Below the pieces are notes generated by a model. It worked only from the letters and a program-made list of their open reading frames with translations, was not told where the DNA came from and did not search any database. 50,626 nucleotides of DNA, from positions 1 through 50,626 of the forward strand of contig JAGVOT010000021.1 in the NCBI GenBank assembly GCA_020052615.1, read 5' to 3'. Positions 6,153-50,353 of this stretch are shown piece after piece. Positions within the stretch are counted from its first letter, which is position 1, and every line of letters begins with the position of its first letter. This DNA is from Nitrospirota bacterium. GTDB taxonomy: Bacteria; Nitrospirota; UBA9217. Both the position numbers and the translations under genes were made by a program.

Positions 6153-7703
6153 TTATTCGCTGGTTTCAATCGTCCGCTTCATTGCTTCCGGTATCCTCTC
6201 GATCAGATCCCCGGCGATCATCCCGGCTTCGCCCTTCTCTTCCGCTGCCAGGTCGCCGGCAAGGCCGTGGAGATAGACGGCAAGGCACGCGGCCGGTGTC
6301 GGGCCGTATCCCTGGGCGAGCAGGCTCCCGATCATGCCCGTCAGCACGTCGCCCGTACCGCCGCTCGCCATGCCGGGGTTGCCCGTCGTATTGACGAACA
6401 CCTCCCCGTCGGGCGTTGCGATGACCGTCCCCGCTCCCTTGAGCACCACGGTCACACCGAACTTTGCGGCAGCGTCAGAGGCCATGCCTATCCTGTCACT
6501 CTGGACATCGTCGGTCGAAACACCCAGGAGCCTCGCCATTTCCCCGGGATGAGGCGTCAAGACCACGGGCGCCTTTGCCTTTTTCAGCGCGGCAACGGAC
6601 CCCGCAAAGGCATTAACCCCGTCGGCGTCGATCACCAGCGGGATGGACATGCGCTGGACCAGGTTGATGACGACCTGGACGGTCTCATAGTGCGTCGTGA
6701 GCCCCGGGCCGATCGCACAGGCCGTCATGCTGCCTGATGCCTTGAGGAGCTCATCCTCCGAACCGATGCCGAGCGTGCCGTCAATGCTCTCACCGGCGGG
6801 AATGCACATGGCCTCCATGACCTGCTGCTGGATGAGGGGAATGATCCCCATGGGCGCGGCGACGCTCACCAGGCCCGCGCCGGTCCGCAGGCCCCCTCGC
6901 GCTGCCATCACCGCCGCACCGGCCTTGCCCAGGGAGCCGGCAATGATCATGAGATGCCCGAAGTCTCCCTTGTGGGAATCCCGGTCGCGCTCGCCCGTCA
7001 ACCCCCAGGCCAGGCCGTGTTCCAGAAGACCGACGCGTATCTTTTCCTTCTCGATGACCTCCGTCGGGATGCCGATGTCCGCCACCCGCACCTGCCCCGC
7101 GAAGGCGGCCCCGGGATACAGCACCAGCCCCCGCTTGGGCACTACCATGGTCACCGTAAGGTCCGCCCGAACCGCAGCACCCATCACCTCGCCGGTATCG
7201 GCGTTAACGCCCGTGGGGATGTCCACGGCCACGACCGGCCGCCCGGCCATGTTCATAAGCTCCGCGGCGATCGCGTAGTTCCCTTTGAGCGGCGAAGAAA
7301 GCCCCACCCCGAGCATGGCATCGACAAGCACGTCGGACCACGCTATCAGCTCCGCGATAGCCGGGGACGCGGCATTCGGGATGATCTCCACATCCATCTT
7401 CCTGAGGATCGCGAGGTTCAGCTTTGCTTCGCCCGTGAGGGCCGCGAAGGACGCAAGGAGGCATACCCGCACGGGAATGCCGCGGATCCGGAGCCTGCGC
7501 GCCAGGGCGAGCCCGTCGCCGCCGTTGTTCCCCTTGCCGCAGAGGATGCCCACCTTCACGCCGTCAAGGCCTTCGAAGAAGCGCTCCATCTCGAAGACGA
7601 CGGCGGACGCCGCGTTCTCCATCAGGACCGGCCCGGGTATGCCGAACTCCCGTATTGCCCGGCGGTCGATGTTCCCTATTTGTTTTGCAGTGGCGATCTT
7701 CAT
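6153..7703 (-). CDS. nnr: bifunctional NAD(P)HX epimerase / ADP-dependent dehydratase
   Basis: Repairs hydrated NADH and NADPH. 516 residues with both halves: the N-terminal YjeF_N epimerase domain (about 1-215; GNNGGDGLALAR, DAMLGVG, VAVDIPTGVNADTGEV) and the C-terminal ribokinase-like dehydratase (about 235-510; KGDFGHLMIIAGS, ACAIGPGL, VIDADGVNAF, LTPHPGEMARL, NTTGNPGMASGGTGDVL with the catalytic Asp). Start ATG at 7703 (MKIATAKQIGNIDRRAI). It lies downstream of acpS in the order pdxJ, acpS, nnr, CBS, tsaE. Several plus-strand frames over it are shadows. Confidence 0.96.
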   Translation of the reverse strand: MKIATAKQIGNIDRRAIREFGIPGPVLMENAASAVVFEMERFFEGLDGVKVGILCGKGNNGGDGLALARRLRIRGIPVRVCLLASFAALTGEAKLNLAILRKMDVEIIPNAASPAIAELIAWSDVLVDAMLGVGLSSPLKGNYAIAAELMNMAGRPVVAVDIPTGVNADTGEVMGAAVRADLTVTMVVPKRGLVLYPGAAFAGQVRVADIGIPTEVIEKEKIRVGLLEHGLAWGLTGERDRDSHKGDFGHLMIIAGSLGKAGAAVMAARGGLRTGAGLVSVAAPMGIIPLIQQQVMEAMCIPAGESIDGTLGIGSEDELLKASGSMTACAIGPGLTTHYETVQVVINLVQRMSIPLVIDADGVNAFAGSVAALKKAKAPVVLTPHPGEMARLLGVSTDDVQSDRIGMASDAAAKFGVTVVLKGAGTVIATPDGEVFVNTTGNPGMASGGTGDVLTGMIGSLLAQGYGPTPAACLAVYLHGLAGDLAAEEKGEAGMIAGDLIERIPEAMKRTIETSE

Positions 7704-31648: not shown

Positions 31649-31747
31649 TGGCGGGAGAGCATGCGAATCGAACGCACCATTCCTGACCAAGGCCAGGAAC
31701 CACCGGATTTGAAGTCCGGGACGGGCACCAGCTCCATAACCTCTCCC
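31649..31747 (-). tRNA. selC: tRNA-Sec (anticodon UCA)
   Basis: 99 bases including an encoded CCA. The acceptor GGGAGAG pairs with CTCTCCC before discriminator G. The anticodon arm CCGGA-CTTCAAA-TCCGG gives anticodon TCA. A long variable arm TTCCTG...CAGGAA and a T-arm with GTTCGATTC complete the selenocysteine-tRNA plan. The eighth acceptor pair is G opposite G, and the D-stem is imperfect. Presence implies UGA-selenocysteine coding somewhere in the genome; selA, selB and selD are not in this window. selC genes are frequent integration sites, but no integrase is seen next to it. Confidence 0.92.
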
Positions 31748-44696: not shown

Positions 44697-45587
44697 ATGA
44701 GAACAGCGATCTCGACGATGGCATGGTGCATCCTTCTTTTGTTCACCAGCAGTCATGCCCTCTCTCAATACAGCCTGCAGCCGGAAAGGGAGTACCGGGA
44801 CGATCCCTCCGTAGTGGTGAACCGGCCGGCCAATGTTCAGGGTTTGACGGGGCTGATCATCACGAACTCCGCCTACACGCAGCGAAAGGGCCGCATCGTC
44901 GCGGGCCTCGCGGCCATCGCCGAGAACAGCCAGGAGCCTGACTTCAGCATTGCGCAGGGCATCGCGACGGTCACCGCGGGCGTCACGGACAGGATCGAGG
45001 TCGGGTTGAAGGCACAGGTTGTCGGGACCAATTTCGGCAGCAGTGAGACGCGAGAGATCGGCGTCGGGGACACCGACCTCCTGTTCAAATGGAGGATCTC
45101 GACGCAGGGGGAAACGCTGCCTTCTATAGCCTTGGGACTGGCGTACACGCTGCCCACGGGAGAGGAATCGAAGGGGTTCCGAAGCGTTGAACATGAAGCC
45201 ATCCGGTTCATGGTTATCGGGACTTCCGAGCAGGAGATGCCCGGCGACTATTTTATCGGGATCTATTTTGAAGGACAGATCGTGAACACCGACCGGTTGC
45301 CGGGAGAGGACGCAAAACCCTATTCCGAAAAATACGGTGTTGTTAACGTCGGCCTGCTCTTCCCGCTCACGGAAAGCCGCAGTCTGCAGGCGATCTTAGA
45401 ATATAATACCGTGGTCAAAAAGGACATCCCCTCCGTCTACGAACAAAACCACAAAGCGTACATGCCGGGGCTGCGGTACGTGACCGAGAATTTCAACATC
45501 AGTCTGGGCCTGCAATTCATTAACCGGGAAGATCCCGTCTTCGAGGACGATCTGCGGTACATCGGCACGCTCAGCTATGCGTTCTGA
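44697..45587 (+). CDS. outer-membrane barrel protein (phenol MetA-degradation-like)
   Basis: 296 residues. Signal peptide MRTAISTMAWCILLLFTSSHALS. Beta-rich, with VTDRIEVGLKAQV, DTDLLFKWRI, LPSIALGLAYTLPTGEES and a terminal ...YIGTLSYAF ending in Phe, the pattern of the Phenol_MetA_deg/transporter barrel family. AAGGAG eight bases upstream fixes ATG 44697, although the frame is open much further upstream through shadow sequence. The 3' end overlaps the convergent flavoprotein gene by 17 bases. Confidence 0.8.
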   Translation: MRTAISTMAWCILLLFTSSHALSQYSLQPEREYRDDPSVVVNRPANVQGLTGLIITNSAYTQRKGRIVAGLAAIAENSQEPDFSIAQGIATVTAGVTDRIEVGLKAQVVGTNFGSSETREIGVGDTDLLFKWRISTQGETLPSIALGLAYTLPTGEESKGFRSVEHEAIRFMVIGTSEQEMPGDYFIGIYFEGQIVNTDRLPGEDAKPYSEKYGVVNVGLLFPLTESRSLQAILEYNTVVKKDIPSVYEQNHKAYMPGLRYVTENFNISLGLQFINREDPVFEDDLRYIGTLSYAF

Positions 45588-46584
45588 CCTCGCTCCCGGG
45601 CTTCATGCTGCCTGAGCCGCCGGCCGGACCTTCTGCCAGCGAACAGACCTCGCCGCTCAACTGCTGCTCCTCGAGAAGCCGTTTGTTGATGTCAATTGCC
45701 GCTGTCGCCCCTTCACCGGCCGCGATCACGACCTGGTCCTGTCCGGTGTTCAACGGACCGACGATGTACAGGCCGCGAAGGGATGATTCGTACACGCTGT
45801 TGGTCACATAGTAGACCTTCTCAGCATCCTTCTTGAGGGACAGGTCTTTCAGAAAATCATCGTTCAGCCTGGCCCCGAACGAGGCCATTACCGCTTCGCA
45901 CGCCACACGCGTCCCGTCCGCAAGTTCCAGTCCCTCCAGTGCTTTTTCACCGACGATGCGCACGGGCCTGCCGGTCACGACAGGGATGCCTTCGTCTGCG
46001 AGCACTTCTGCCGATGACGCGGGGAGGTCCATATCGCAAGGGAGGAACGTCGTGTCCCTGGTGAACAGCTGTTTCATGGCAAGGGCGAGGTTCACGGCAT
46101 TGAGCGAATTCCCCGTGACGACCAGTTTCCTGTTCGTGGTGCGGTATCCGTCGCAATCGATGCAGGTGAAGTAGCTCGTCCCGAGAAAGCGGTGGACCCC
46201 CTCGATCGACGGGAACACATCGGACACGCCGGTCGAAACGATGACGGTCCGGGATCGATATACCGTCCCGCCGTCGGACACGGCATAAAAGCTTCCCTGC
46301 TTTTCCACTTTCGTTACCCGGCCCTTCAGGATCTGCACGTTGAAGCTTTTCGCCTGATCCAGACCCCGCCGGATGATCTCGGCGCCGGAAATAAGCCGGT
46401 GGGTCAGGACGTTCTCGATGGAGTGGGCGTGGCTCGTGCGGCCTCCCCCCCGGTCGATCAGCAGAACATCGCGGTTGTAGCGGCCGAGGTAGATGGATGC
46501 CTGCAAACCACCCGGCCCCGCGCCGATGATGATGCAGTCGAAGACATGGTCCCCCTCTTTCGGTGAAATGAGATCAATTCCCAT
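45571..46584 (-). CDS. thioredoxin-reductase-like FAD/NAD(P) oxidoreductase
   Basis: 337 residues. FAD-binding GAGPGGLQASIYLGRYNRDVLLID, a mid-chain CIDCDGY that matches the CxxCDG of TrxB, and a C-terminal GLYIVGPLNTGQDQVVIAAGEGATAA. The NAD(P) site is degenerate (VVTGNSLNAVNLALAM rather than GGGDSA), so its donor may differ. Last gene of the riboswitch-led operon, 54 bases after the GNAT gene; a true trxB is two genes upstream. Substrate unknown. Confidence 0.87.
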   Translation of the reverse strand: MGIDLISPKEGDHVFDCIIIGAGPGGLQASIYLGRYNRDVLLIDRGGGRTSHAHSIENVLTHRLISGAEIIRRGLDQAKSFNVQILKGRVTKVEKQGSFYAVSDGGTVYRSRTVIVSTGVSDVFPSIEGVHRFLGTSYFTCIDCDGYRTTNRKLVVTGNSLNAVNLALAMKQLFTRDTTFLPCDMDLPASSAEVLADEGIPVVTGRPVRIVGEKALEGLELADGTRVACEAVMASFGARLNDDFLKDLSLKKDAEKVYYVTNSVYESSLRGLYIVGPLNTGQDQVVIAAGEGATAAIDINKRLLEEQQLSGEVCSLAEGPAGGSGSMKPGSEVRTHS

Positions 46585-46638: not shown

Positions 46639-46938
46639 TCACCGTTCCGGACCCGCGTGTTCCATCATATGTTCCGCGATCAGGGAGCCAAGTCCGCTTC
46701 CCCGGCGAAGGTCCCTGACGGTGATGCACGGGGTCAATCCGCCGCGCTGCACGATGCCGAATCCGATCATCCGGTCCTGCTCGACCGCGATGACCGCATC
46801 GGCGCCTTCCAGAGCGCAGGGCACACGATGCCGTGCCAGATATGCTCTGATGTCGATCAAATCCCGCTCAGTCGCATGACGGATGGACACCATTTTCCCC
46901 GTTATGTTCGATATACCCGTACGATACGGATCACTCAC
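46639..46938 (-). CDS. short GNAT-family N-acetyltransferase
   Basis: 99 residues, about two thirds of a normal GNAT. VSIRHATERDLIDIRAYL begins the fold, DAVIAVEQDRMIGFGIVQRG gives the central strands, and VRDLRRGSGLGSLIAEHMM carries the acetyl-CoA pyrophosphate loop RxxGxG. The usual C-terminal strands are missing, resembling compact YjdJ/ArgA-like forms. The GTG at 46938 is chosen for AAAGGGG eight bases upstream; it lies just past the trxB stop at 46944. Acceptor unknown. Confidence 0.8.
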   Translation of the reverse strand: MSDPYRTGISNITGKMVSIRHATERDLIDIRAYLARHRVPCALEGADAVIAVEQDRMIGFGIVQRGGLTPCITVRDLRRGSGLGSLIAEHMMEHAGPER

Positions 46939-46943
46939 AACGA

Positions 46944-47927
46944 TCACCCCTTTCCACTGCTGACCCCGAACCTCGGATCGGATGCGAGGATGCCGGTTTT
47001 CTGCACTTCCACATAGTGCGCCGCTGCCAGCGCCGCGATGGACCCGTCGGCTGCCGCGATCACGATCTGGTTGGCGAACTTTCTCCTCAGGTCCCCGACG
47101 GCGAAGATGCCCGGAACGGATGTCTCGCATTTCTCATCGGTCATGACGTAGCCCTCATCGTTTGTCCGGACCTCGAAGGGAACTAGAGAGTTATTAGGGA
47201 TAGAACCGATGAATATGAAAACGCCGTCTGCGCGCATCTCTTTCTTTTCCCCGGTTTCGCTGTTCTCGAGCGATACGGCAGTGACACTCTCTCCGTTCCC
47301 TTTGATCTCCCTGACCAGGGTGTTTCCCAGCACTTCGATGCCCGGATCGGCCCGCAGCCGGTCCTGCAGCAGCCTGGCCGCCCTGGGCGTACTGCCGCGG
47401 TGAACAAGGGAGGTCTTCTTCGCCAGTCTGGACAAGTGAAGCGCCTCCTCCACAGCCGTGTCTCCCCCGCCCACGACGACGACGGTACGATCCCTGAAAA
47501 AGAAACCGTCGCAGGTGCCGCAGTAGGAAACGCCGCTCCCGAGGTATTCAGCTTCTCCGGGAACGCCGAGCTTGCGGACGGTGCTTCCCACGCCGAGGAT
47601 GAGGGCGACGGCCTCGTGCCGGTCGCCATTGGCAAGCCTGACCGTGTGAAGATCTGTTCCCGCGGTCACCTCCACAACCTCTTCCTGCATGATACGGAGG
47701 CCAAACGATTGTGCATGGTGAAGCATCCTCTCCGCAAGATCGAACCCGGTTATCCCTTCCACGCCCGGGTAGTTCTCCACCTCCTTCGAGATTGCTATCT
47801 GGCCGCCGGGCAATCCTTTTTCGAAGAGAATGGTCTTCAACGCGGCGCGCTGACAGTAGAGCCCGGCAGCGAGCCCCGCCGGCCCTCCCCCCACAATGAT
47901 GACCTCGTGGGCCTCTCTCATCGCCAT
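46944..47927 (-). CDS. trxB: thioredoxin reductase
   Basis: 327 residues. FAD site IIVGGGPAGLAAGLYCQRAALKT, redox-active CGTCDG, NADPH site VVVVGGGDTAVEEALHLS with HRGSTPRAA, and C-terminal GIFAVGDLRRKFANQIVIAAADGSIAA. It keeps thioredoxin reduced in the cytosol. AAGGAGG supports ATG 47927. It follows the DCC-family gene by 36 bases. The active-site spacing and length are normal. No thioredoxin gene adjoins it. Confidence 0.95.
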   Translation of the reverse strand: MAMREAHEVIIVGGGPAGLAAGLYCQRAALKTILFEKGLPGGQIAISKEVENYPGVEGITGFDLAERMLHHAQSFGLRIMQEEVVEVTAGTDLHTVRLANGDRHEAVALILGVGSTVRKLGVPGEAEYLGSGVSYCGTCDGFFFRDRTVVVVGGGDTAVEEALHLSRLAKKTSLVHRGSTPRAARLLQDRLRADPGIEVLGNTLVREIKGNGESVTAVSLENSETGEKKEMRADGVFIFIGSIPNNSLVPFEVRTNDEGYVMTDEKCETSVPGIFAVGDLRRKFANQIVIAAADGSIAALAAAHYVEVQKTGILASDPRFGVSSGKG

Positions 47928-47963: not shown

Positions 47964-48383
47964 TTACGCCGCGTGTTTCCTGTTGCCTGCCAGATGGGAC
48001 AGGATCGCCGCGATCCGGTATCTTCTGTCAGCGAACCAGCGGTATGCGATCCGGGAAAGCGGCGCCGCTCCCGGCAATTTGAACAGCGGAGCCGCAAAAC
48101 GGAAGCCCTTGATCCTGGCGAGGATTTGGGGCATCGCCTGTTCTCCAACCAGCACGGTGCCGTCGGGCAATACAAGGTGCATGGCCTTCATGCAATCAGC
48201 CCGATTGACCCCGGGATGGAGCGAACGCCGCTGTTCCGACTGGCACGGCATCATCGTAAAGGAACCGCTGATCTCATGCTCCCTTATCAATTTCACCGTA
48301 CCGGCGCAAACCGGGCACTTGCCGTCATAGATCAGCGTCGCAGGCGCCTTGCTGTTGCGCGCCTTTCGTTTTCGTTCTCTCAT
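47964..48383 (-). CDS. DCC-family thiol-disulphide oxidoreductase (DUF393)
   Basis: 139 residues. After a basic start (MRERKRKARNSKAP) comes LIYDGKCPVCAGTVKLI with the CxxC of the family (often DGxCxxC), MMPCQSEQ, and LPDGTVLVGEQAMPQIL. The fold is thioredoxin-like and predicted to act on thiols; physiological partner not established. SD GGGAG upstream of ATG 48383. Between DUF309 and trxB in the operon, so a thiol-related role is coherent. Confidence 0.9.
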   Translation of the reverse strand: MRERKRKARNSKAPATLIYDGKCPVCAGTVKLIREHEISGSFTMMPCQSEQRRSLHPGVNRADCMKAMHLVLPDGTVLVGEQAMPQILARIKGFRFAAPLFKLPGAAPLSRIAYRWFADRRYRIAAILSHLAGNRKHAA

Positions 48384-48440: not shown

Positions 48441-48824
48441 TCAGCGTTGGACCGCCATCCGCGCAATCTTGGGCAATGCATCAAGGGAAACGCGCAATGA
48501 ACAGCTCTCGAACTCATCGAGGACATCTTCGAGGGCCGCGGAAAGCTCGGCAAGACACAGGTCCGGATGCGTGCTGATACTGCTCCGGACAAGGGGCAGG
48601 CCCTTTTTCACGAGCAAAGCCGCTCCTTCGCACTCCCGGCGGAGGTAATGATGAAACGCCCCGGCAACCATGACCAGCCCCTGGAGAAAACGCTTTTCTC
48701 CGGCATCGGTCGCAGTGAGCCAAGGGACCTCCCAGGCTTCCTGGGCCTCGAAGTATCTGCCCTGGTTAAAAAGGGCAATGCCTTTCTCGATCAGGTCGTT
48801 CTCCGTGAGCACATCGTCCTTCAT
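48441..48824 (-). CDS. DUF309 protein
   Basis: 127 residues, all helical. The family signature is ALFNQGRYFEAQEAWEVPWL (usually ending HExWE) and EKRFLQGLVMVAGAFHHYLR. The function of DUF309 is not known. AAAGGAG five bases upstream supports ATG 48824. First gene after the riboswitch and terminator; the frame is open upstream through the leader but is not coding there. Confidence 0.9.
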   Translation of the reverse strand: MKDDVLTENDLIEKGIALFNQGRYFEAQEAWEVPWLTATDAGEKRFLQGLVMVAGAFHHYLRRECEGAALLVKKGLPLVRSSISTHPDLCLAELSAALEDVLDEFESCSLRVSLDALPKIARMAVQR

Positions 48825-48868: not shown

Positions 48869-48915
48869 AAAAAAGGCCAAGCTGCCCGCTCGTAGCATCC
48901 GTCGGCAGCTCGGCC
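48869..48915 (-). terminator. riboswitch expression platform (terminator)
   Basis: On the minus strand, GGCCGAGCTGCC pairs with GGCAGCTTGGCC (one mismatch) and is followed by TTTTTT. The 5' arm is also the 3' end of the GEMM aptamer, so ligand binding should prevent terminator formation. Confidence 0.85.
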
Positions 48916-48988
48916 ATCTTCCTCTGCGGGAAGATTCGTGACTTTCCGTCCCCCCCTCGCGGAGGGTTTGGCTTTATCGGGACAATAT
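48902..48988 (-). ncRNA. GEMM-I-like cyclic dinucleotide riboswitch
   Basis: Minus-strand leader of the DUF309 operon. Conserved blocks: GCCAAACC, a CCTCC-GCGA-GGGGG stem with a GNRA loop, GGGACGGAAAGTC, a long ATCTTCC/GGAAGAT stem, and GATGGCCGAGCTGCC as the receptor side. Against the Vc2 c-di-GMP riboswitch the key pair G21-C46 is C-G here, a compensatory change, while the A47 and G20 positions are kept. The retained G20 favours c-di-GMP, but cGAMP cannot be excluded because the alignment was made by eye. Confidence 0.8.
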
Positions 48989-49001
48989 ATATCCTGTTAT
49001 A

Positions 49002-49030
49002 TTTATACCTCCCGTTCCCGGTCCTGTCAA
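49002..49030 (-). promoter_or_regulatory. promoter of the riboswitch-led redox operon
   Basis: Minus strand TTGACA (49030-49025), exactly 17 bases, TATAAA (49007-49002). Predicted start near 48995, just before the aptamer. Confidence 0.8.
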
Positions 49031-49057
49031 GACGGGACAAGGAGCTTATGCCTCATC

Positions 49058-49309: not shown

Positions 49310-50353
49310 ATGTCCCATGACTTCAATTGCATAGCAACCGGCATCGGCAGCCTGCCGGTCACCGACCCCGATGAAGCGGCAAAGCTGTCGCTCCAGTACC
49401 TCCCCGAAGCGCCCATCTGGCCCCAGCTCCCCCAGCGGAGCTTCCACGAGCACATGGACGGCCAGTACAGCGAGTCCCTCCCCGGCATCGTCGTGGACGA
49501 AAAGAAACAGCGCTTTTCCTTCGACACGTCGAAGGACCTCACGCCTGAGCTGGAGAAGTTCTTCGGGAAATATATTGAGAAGGACTATGGCTTCTTCAAG
49601 ATATCGGAGGACTACGCGGCCGGGTTCTACGGCTTCCAGCGGGCCGTCGCGAAAGGCCTGCCGAAGCAGGCGCGGTTCATCAAGGGAGCCGTCACCGGCC
49701 CCCTTACCGCGGGGATATCGTTCAAGGACGAGACCGGCAAGGACATCATCCACAATGACGTCATGTTCGACGCCGTCGTGAAGGGCCTCGCCATGAAAGC
49801 GGCCTGGCAGATCGAAGCGTTCAGGCCCCTCGGTCTTCCGGTCATCATCTTCATCGACGAGCCGGCCATGGAGTCCCTGGGGTCGGCCTTTTCCGCCGCG
49901 TCGCCCGCCATGGTCGCCGAGAAGTTGAACGAGATCATCGACACCATCCACGAGCTGGGCGGCATCGCCGGCATCCACTGCTGCGGGAACGCGGACTGGC
50001 CCATGATCTTCAACACCCGGGTGGACATCGTGAACTTCGATGCCTTTGGATACGTCGAGAAGGTCCTGCTCTACCCCGACGACATCAGGAAGTTCTACGC
50101 CCGCGGCGGGTCCCTCGCCTGGGGCATCGTGCCCACGGGCGCCTTCACCGGCAAGGAAACAGCCGCCCTGCTCATCGAATGGCTCGAATCGAACATGAAG
50201 CGTCTCGAAGAAGCGGGCATCGACAGGAAGACCATCCTCCGGCAGTGTCTTATCACGCCGTCCTGCGGCATGGGCAGCCTCACGCCAGGCCAGTCGCTGG
50301 CTATCCTGAAGCTGACCCGGGAAGTCTCGGACCGGATGCAGAAGAAGATCTAG
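49310..50353 (+). CDS. short MetE-like (UROD/cobalamin-independent methionine synthase fold) protein
   Basis: 347 residues: only the C-terminal catalytic barrel of MetE, lacking its N-terminal half. ATGIGSLP near the start, KGAVTGPLTAGISF, IIFIDEPAME, the zinc site HCCGN (His, Cys), WGIVPTG and a C-terminal Cys in LITPSCGMGSL. Such core-MetE proteins are thought to take methyl groups from corrinoid proteins rather than folate, or to act in other methyl transfers; the donor here is unknown. SD is weak (AAAGGA, 12-13 bases away). Confidence 0.88.
   Translation: MSHDFNCIATGIGSLPVTDPDEAAKLSLQYLPEAPIWPQLPQRSFHEHMDGQYSESLPGIVVDEKKQRFSFDTSKDLTPELEKFFGKYIEKDYGFFKISEDYAAGFYGFQRAVAKGLPKQARFIKGAVTGPLTAGISFKDETGKDIIHNDVMFDAVVKGLAMKAAWQIEAFRPLGLPVIIFIDEPAMESLGSAFSAASPAMVAEKLNEIIDTIHELGGIAGIHCCGNADWPMIFNTRVDIVNFDAFGYVEKVLLYPDDIRKFYARGGSLAWGIVPTGAFTGKETAALLIEWLESNMKRLEEAGIDRKTILRQCLITPSCGMGSLTPGQSLAILKLTREVSDRMQKKI

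Follow-up and report, generated by a model that had tools for sequence, protein, structure and literature searches.

A leader on the minus strand of the stretch of DNA analysed here (the window, 50,626 nucleotides, contig C50 of a Nitrospirota genome of 3.99 Mb) is very probably a c-di-GMP-I riboswitch that acts as a transcriptional ON switch for an operon of five genes, DUF309-DCC-TrxB-GNAT-flavoprotein. The riboswitch class is already known and the element is ordinary within its genome, which holds eight GEMM-I elements. It is the target set, a cytoplasmic thiol-redox operon, that is unusual for the class and differs from the targets of c-di-GMP-I (RF01051), since c-di-GMP riboswitches have mainly been found at genes for motility, biofilms, pili and cytochromes, and no report of c-di-GMP riboswitch control of a disulfide-reduction operon was found in the open-access literature searched.

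The leader and its switching direction

The leader is located between a divergent gene, which begins at 49310 on the plus strand, and the operon start at 48824 on the minus strand. The strong promoter claimed in the first-pass annotation is present at 49030-49002 (−) and is near-consensus, with the −35 hexamer TTGACA lying exactly at 49025-49030, the −10 hexamer TATAAA at 49002-49007, a spacer of 17 nt between them and a match to the consensus at 11 of 12 positions; it is absent from the list of a simple promoter scanner because the scanner requires the final T of TATAAT. The aptamer, of class I of the cyclic-dinucleotide (GEMM) riboswitches, occupies 48981-48900 (−) and contains all the blocks that the annotation had described, namely GCCAAACC, a stem of 6 bp (48951-48966, from the Rfam consensus structure) with the GNRA cap GCGA at 48960-48957, GGGACGGAAAGTC and the receptor stem. 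At 48915-48904, the aptamer 3′ strand GGCCGAGCTGCC is at the same time the 5′ arm of a terminator, the 3′ arm of which, GGGCAGCTTGGCC (48887-48875), is followed by T6 (48874-48869), again as claimed.

The proposed check with RF01051 and related models on the minus strand was run, and both Rfam models scored above their gathering cut-offs: RF03167 (c-di-GMP-I-GGC) gives 62.6 bits (E 1.7e-12, gathering 59) in a cmscan of the whole window and RF01051 (c-di-GMP-I) gives 54.4 bits (E 1.1e-9, gathering 35) in a search of the own genome. Our own covariance model, R2, gives the window aptamer 77.3 bits, the window sequence being part of the R2 training set. The cmscan of the whole window found no other riboswitch family above cut-off, and 14 control genomes gave no match to RF03167 or RF01051. 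A Guanidine-III candidate at 49010-49037 (+), with 15.9 bits against a gathering cut-off of 36 and E 0.4, was rejected as a chance match. In 32 aligned relatives, 91.7% of the paired cells hold standard pairs, compared with 80.0% in shuffles, double changes occur in 12 of 20 pairs, and none of 500 shuffles reached either the observed standard-pair share or the double-change count, while controls with a slid structure gave 29-47% standard pairs. We regard the element at 48981-48900 as a genuine c-di-GMP-I (GEMM-I) riboswitch, with c-di-GMP as its probable ligand. With the class prototype Vc2 (RF01051) it shares the fold, the GNRA-capped stem, the receptor stem, G20, A47 and a score above gathering; it differs by its very short P1 and by C21-G46 in place of G21-C46.

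This last difference, C21 at 48971 pairing with G46 at 48946, had been read in the first-pass annotation as a sign of RNA constraint. The alignment bears out both the swap and its reading. Among 115 Nitrospirota elements (75 from 14 same-order genomes, with those of other families of the phylum then added), the pair 21/46 is kept complementary, as C-G or G-C, in 111, with no clear exception, the position being unclear in the other 4 owing to local indels. The C-G form is present in 61 elements (50 with G20, 10 with A20 and 1 with U20) and the G-C form in 50 (32 with G20 and 18 with A20); in alignment A2, with 32 sequences, the counts are 20 C-G, 12 G-C and no mismatch. The swap is thus no oddity, C21-G46 being the commonest form in Nitrospirota.

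As the aptamer 3′ strand doubles as the 5′ arm of the terminator (12 bp, T6, predicted −27 kcal/mol), the folded aptamer and the terminator are mutually exclusive, which gives the layout of an ON switch. Based on this layout, the switching direction is most likely ON. With no ligand, GGCCGAGCTGCC would be transcribed and would pair with GGGCAGCTTGGCC, so that transcription would end at T6. With c-di-GMP bound, the aptamer would keep GGCCGAGCTGCC in the receptor stem and P1, thereby blocking formation of the terminator, and the DUF309-DCC-TrxB-GNAT-flavoprotein operon would be transcribed. In physiological terms, high c-di-GMP may then raise the disulfide-reducing capacity of the cell.

Moreover, the claimed layout is not confined to the window. 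The overlap was evaluated in ViennaRNA with the last 22 aptamer bases and the downstream sequence up to the T-run, and a threshold of 12 pairs was chosen because one of 8 pairs lets 40% of the shuffles through, which is too lax. At least 12 pairs between the aptamer 3′ strand and the terminator 3′ arm are formed in 42 of 54 C21/G20 elements, compared with 8.3% with shuffled downstream sequence, and in 5 of 31 G21/G20 elements, compared with 4.8% with shuffled sequence. Compensatory changes are also seen, with the aptamer strands GGCCGAG, GGCCGGG and AACCGGG standing opposite the arms CTCGGC, CCCGGC and CCCGGTT. The recurrence in 42 of 54 elements together with the co-varying arms supports the view that members of the C21/G20 subtype are commonly built as ON switches. 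In free folding, calculated with neither tertiary contacts nor ligand, the terminator has −55.7 kcal/mol versus −27.7 kcal/mol for the enforced aptamer; because the terminator is so strongly favoured by free energy, switching has to be under kinetic control while the RNA is being transcribed. Note also that the very short P1 of the window aptamer counts against the ON-switch explanation.

The ligand

In the cmscan alignment the pocket of the window aptamer consists of G20 (48972), on the 5′ side of C21-G46, and A47 (48945), on the 3′ side of it, which is the canonical c-di-GMP-I arrangement. At the selectivity position, c-di-GMP is favoured by a G and c-AMP-GMP by an A (PMC9481103, PMC9262584). 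The host genome has 30 GGDEF matches, so it is very likely that c-di-GMP is made in the host. Since G20 is a selectivity factor but no hard filter (PMC9262584), 3′,3′-cGAMP must be considered as a possible ligand, with the aptamer belonging to GEMM-Ib and the operon controlled by the same ON-switch mode. We consider this very improbable. It is true that the GEMM-Ib riboswitches of Geobacter have the same fold as the window aptamer, and that the own genome contains three A20-type GEMM-I elements and two GGDEF proteins in which Ser replaces Asp, the change that distinguishes the cGAMP-making Hypr enzymes (PMC6456294), so that cGAMP signalling may exist there. However, the window has G at the selectivity position, where cGAMP riboswitches (PMC9481103), those of Geobacter included, have A, and both Ser GGDEF proteins carry GGEEF, a combination reported to be inactive in GmGacA (PMC6456294). 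The Geobacter riboswitches control cytochrome, pilus and polysaccharide genes (PMC6456294). Another ligand might also be expected if the element were a variant of the c-di-GMP-I-GGC type, as could be thought because RF03167 is the top-scoring Rfam family; this we consider very improbable. RF03167 elements resemble the window element in their short P1 and in aptamer length. At position 47, however, the consensus of RF03167 is G and the window aptamer has A; A47 is present in all scored Nitrospirota elements in which the position is readable, with no clear G47, so that the high RF03167 score probably comes from a general likeness in sequence. We infer that the name GGC denotes the pocket residues G20-G47-C92; if so, the window element with its A47 is not a GGC variant despite the score, and c-di-GMP stays the preferred ligand.

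A few observations on the own genome belong beside this question. The two Ser GGDEF proteins (L254 and L259, at G000:C90:23907-24389 and G000:C30:21724-22209) have GHLEGS for GHxxGD together with the GGEEF motif. One A20-type element (L085 5810-5917(−), G000:C113:124309-124416) is a candidate cGAMP sensor that adjoins a GGDEF domain and lies upstream of a family-conserved lipoprotein gene. The other two form a tandem (L086 6160-6236(−) and 6339-6415(−), G000:C76) before a cytochrome-like lipoprotein; they are of the type A20/C21-G46 with an UACUCAACC block, and are likewise candidate cGAMP sensors.

The operon and its conservation

The five genes, all on the minus strand, are collinear with short gaps, and the thiol-redox content claimed for them is borne out by Pfam, NCBIfam and PDB searches. 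The first gene (48441-48824) encodes a DUF309 protein of 127 aa (PF03745, E 2.6e-18), and it is followed by a DCC1-like thiol-disulfide oxidoreductase of 139 aa (47964-48383; PF04134, E 2.3e-24) and a TrxB thioredoxin-disulfide reductase of 327 aa (46944-47927; TIGR01292, 349.6 bits, equivalog cut-off 343.45). The next protein (46639-46938, probable GTG start) has no Pfam match of its own and is called GNAT-like via its orthologue in L074, which is 47% identical to the window copy and matches Acetyltransf_7 with E 2.6e-7. The last gene (45571-46584) encodes a flavoprotein of 337 aa, for which 5N0J (Gll2934) is the best match in the PDB, with E 6e-39; its best solved relatives include Gll2934, the ferredoxin-flavin thioredoxin reductase (FFTR/DTR) of Gloeobacter, and Slr0600, the DDOR. 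It had been described as a second TrxB-like flavoprotein; the likeness to TrxB stands, and the description is refined in that the NADPH GxGxxA/G motif is absent, VTGNSLNAVNLA being found where TrxB has it, while the FAD motif GAGPGG and a CxxC (CIDC, with C141 and C144 conserved) are present. An FAD GxGxxG motif and a CxxC with no NADPH binding are the criteria given for the FFTR/DDOR group (PMC9025218). The flavoprotein is accordingly nearest to FFTR/DDOR-type enzymes, with a putative activity of that kind: it has the FAD site, the CxxC and the loss of the NADPH motif in common with Gll2934 and Slr0600 but is distant from them in sequence. Against plasmids it gave only distant matches of <60% identity.

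Two further genes in the window may be recorded. The divergent gene (49310-50353 (+)) encodes a 347-aa protein that looks by eye like a methionine-synthase/UroD fold and matches no family of Pfam or NCBIfam at E 0.001. A tRNA-Sec gene at 31653-31747 (−), with 64.1 bits, suggests selenocysteine use in the host genome.

A contig of 3.6 kb (L091) carries DCC-TrxB-GNAT-flavoprotein in the window order, with protein identities of 77, 80, 64 and 78%, and ends short of the DUF309 position; it is binned as Bacteroidetes CTSoil_037 and may be a mis-binned Nitrospirota fragment or may have been transferred. A search with DUF309 found no orthologous operon among 60 relatives. The flavoprotein is present at 56-66% identity in the genomes G008-G013, with GNAT upstream of it in G008, G009, G012 and G013, and a recognisable aptamer precedes GNAT only in G008, the contig of G009 being too short to judge. 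For the G008 aptamer RF03167 gives 30.0 bits and R2 gives 36.7 bits (E 1.2e-9). This aptamer has C21 and G46; its conserved AAA and GGA core is lost, so it may be non-functional. In the G012 and G013 leaders no aptamer was found with Rfam or R2, and what remains is a TTGACA box together with a T-run that resembles a terminator. At the other flavoprotein loci (L094, L096 and L099-L102) no aptamer was found with Rfam, and the R2 matches were weak. Thus, in the relatives searched, this switch is not followed by a conserved DUF309, DCC or TrxB, and GNAT plus flavoprotein stands behind a related switch once, with the degenerate aptamer of G008. The distribution in G008-G013, with so few genomes, suggests weakly that GNAT-flavoprotein is the older target and that DUF309-DCC-TrxB was either added later in the window lineage or lost elsewhere.

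The degenerate aptamer of G008, and the G012 and G013 leaders with their promoter box and T-run and no aptamer, would also be expected if the leader were decaying or already non-functional, with the operon constitutive or under another promoter. For the window we judge this to be very improbable as well, because its copy retains the pocket nucleotides as well as the core blocks and still overlaps the terminator, and the functional ON switch stays the reading that we prefer.

Subtypes and targets in Nitrospirota

The first genes behind the G20/C21-G46 elements include those for CBS-pair proteins, alpha/beta hydrolases, NAD(P)-binding proteins of the NmrA-like kind, an isochorismatase-domain protein, a PP2C phosphatase and a PAS-MCP protein, and also for exported proteins. 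With a hydrophobic N-terminus as a crude proxy for export, 15 of 35 genes behind G20/C21-G46 elements are positive; for G20/G21-C46 elements the figure is 24 of 27 (Fisher p 2e-4). The contrast is exploratory because the genes are phylogenetically non-independent, with CBS occurring repeatedly, were called automatically and were scored with a threshold set by eye. Read in this exploratory way, C21-G46/G20 elements would often precede genes of cytoplasmic proteins and G21-C46/G20 elements mostly those of exported ones. Small CBS-pair proteins are found behind c-di-GMP-I elements at L088, L122, L149, L153, L168, L201, L205 and L216, and CBS-pair proteins are a possible conserved riboswitch target in several Nitrospirota families. 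In G008, three near-identical tandem c-di-GMP-I riboswitches, with one terminator each (L127, G008:C53:17499-18168), precede a gene for a protein of 1112 aa, the start of which resembles a signal peptide.

We put forward tentatively, as a generalization that is rather less likely to hold than to fail, that the C21-G46 elements of Nitrospirota are a distinct ON-switch subclass, with the terminator within the aptamer 3′ strand and a regulon consisting partly of cytoplasmic redox, stress and regulatory genes, whereas the G21-C46 elements mostly serve exported proteins, e.g. cytochromes. The pattern that links subtype to target deserves a test.

With a disulfide-reduction operon directly under its control, c-di-GMP would be tied to intracellular redox control, and the sister elements before CBS, NmrA and hydrolase genes would extend the c-di-GMP link in a largely uncultured group. 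If the subtype pattern is true, a single second messenger would act through two switch designs that differ physically and in the gene sets they serve, both designs being possibly tuned to different ligand levels.
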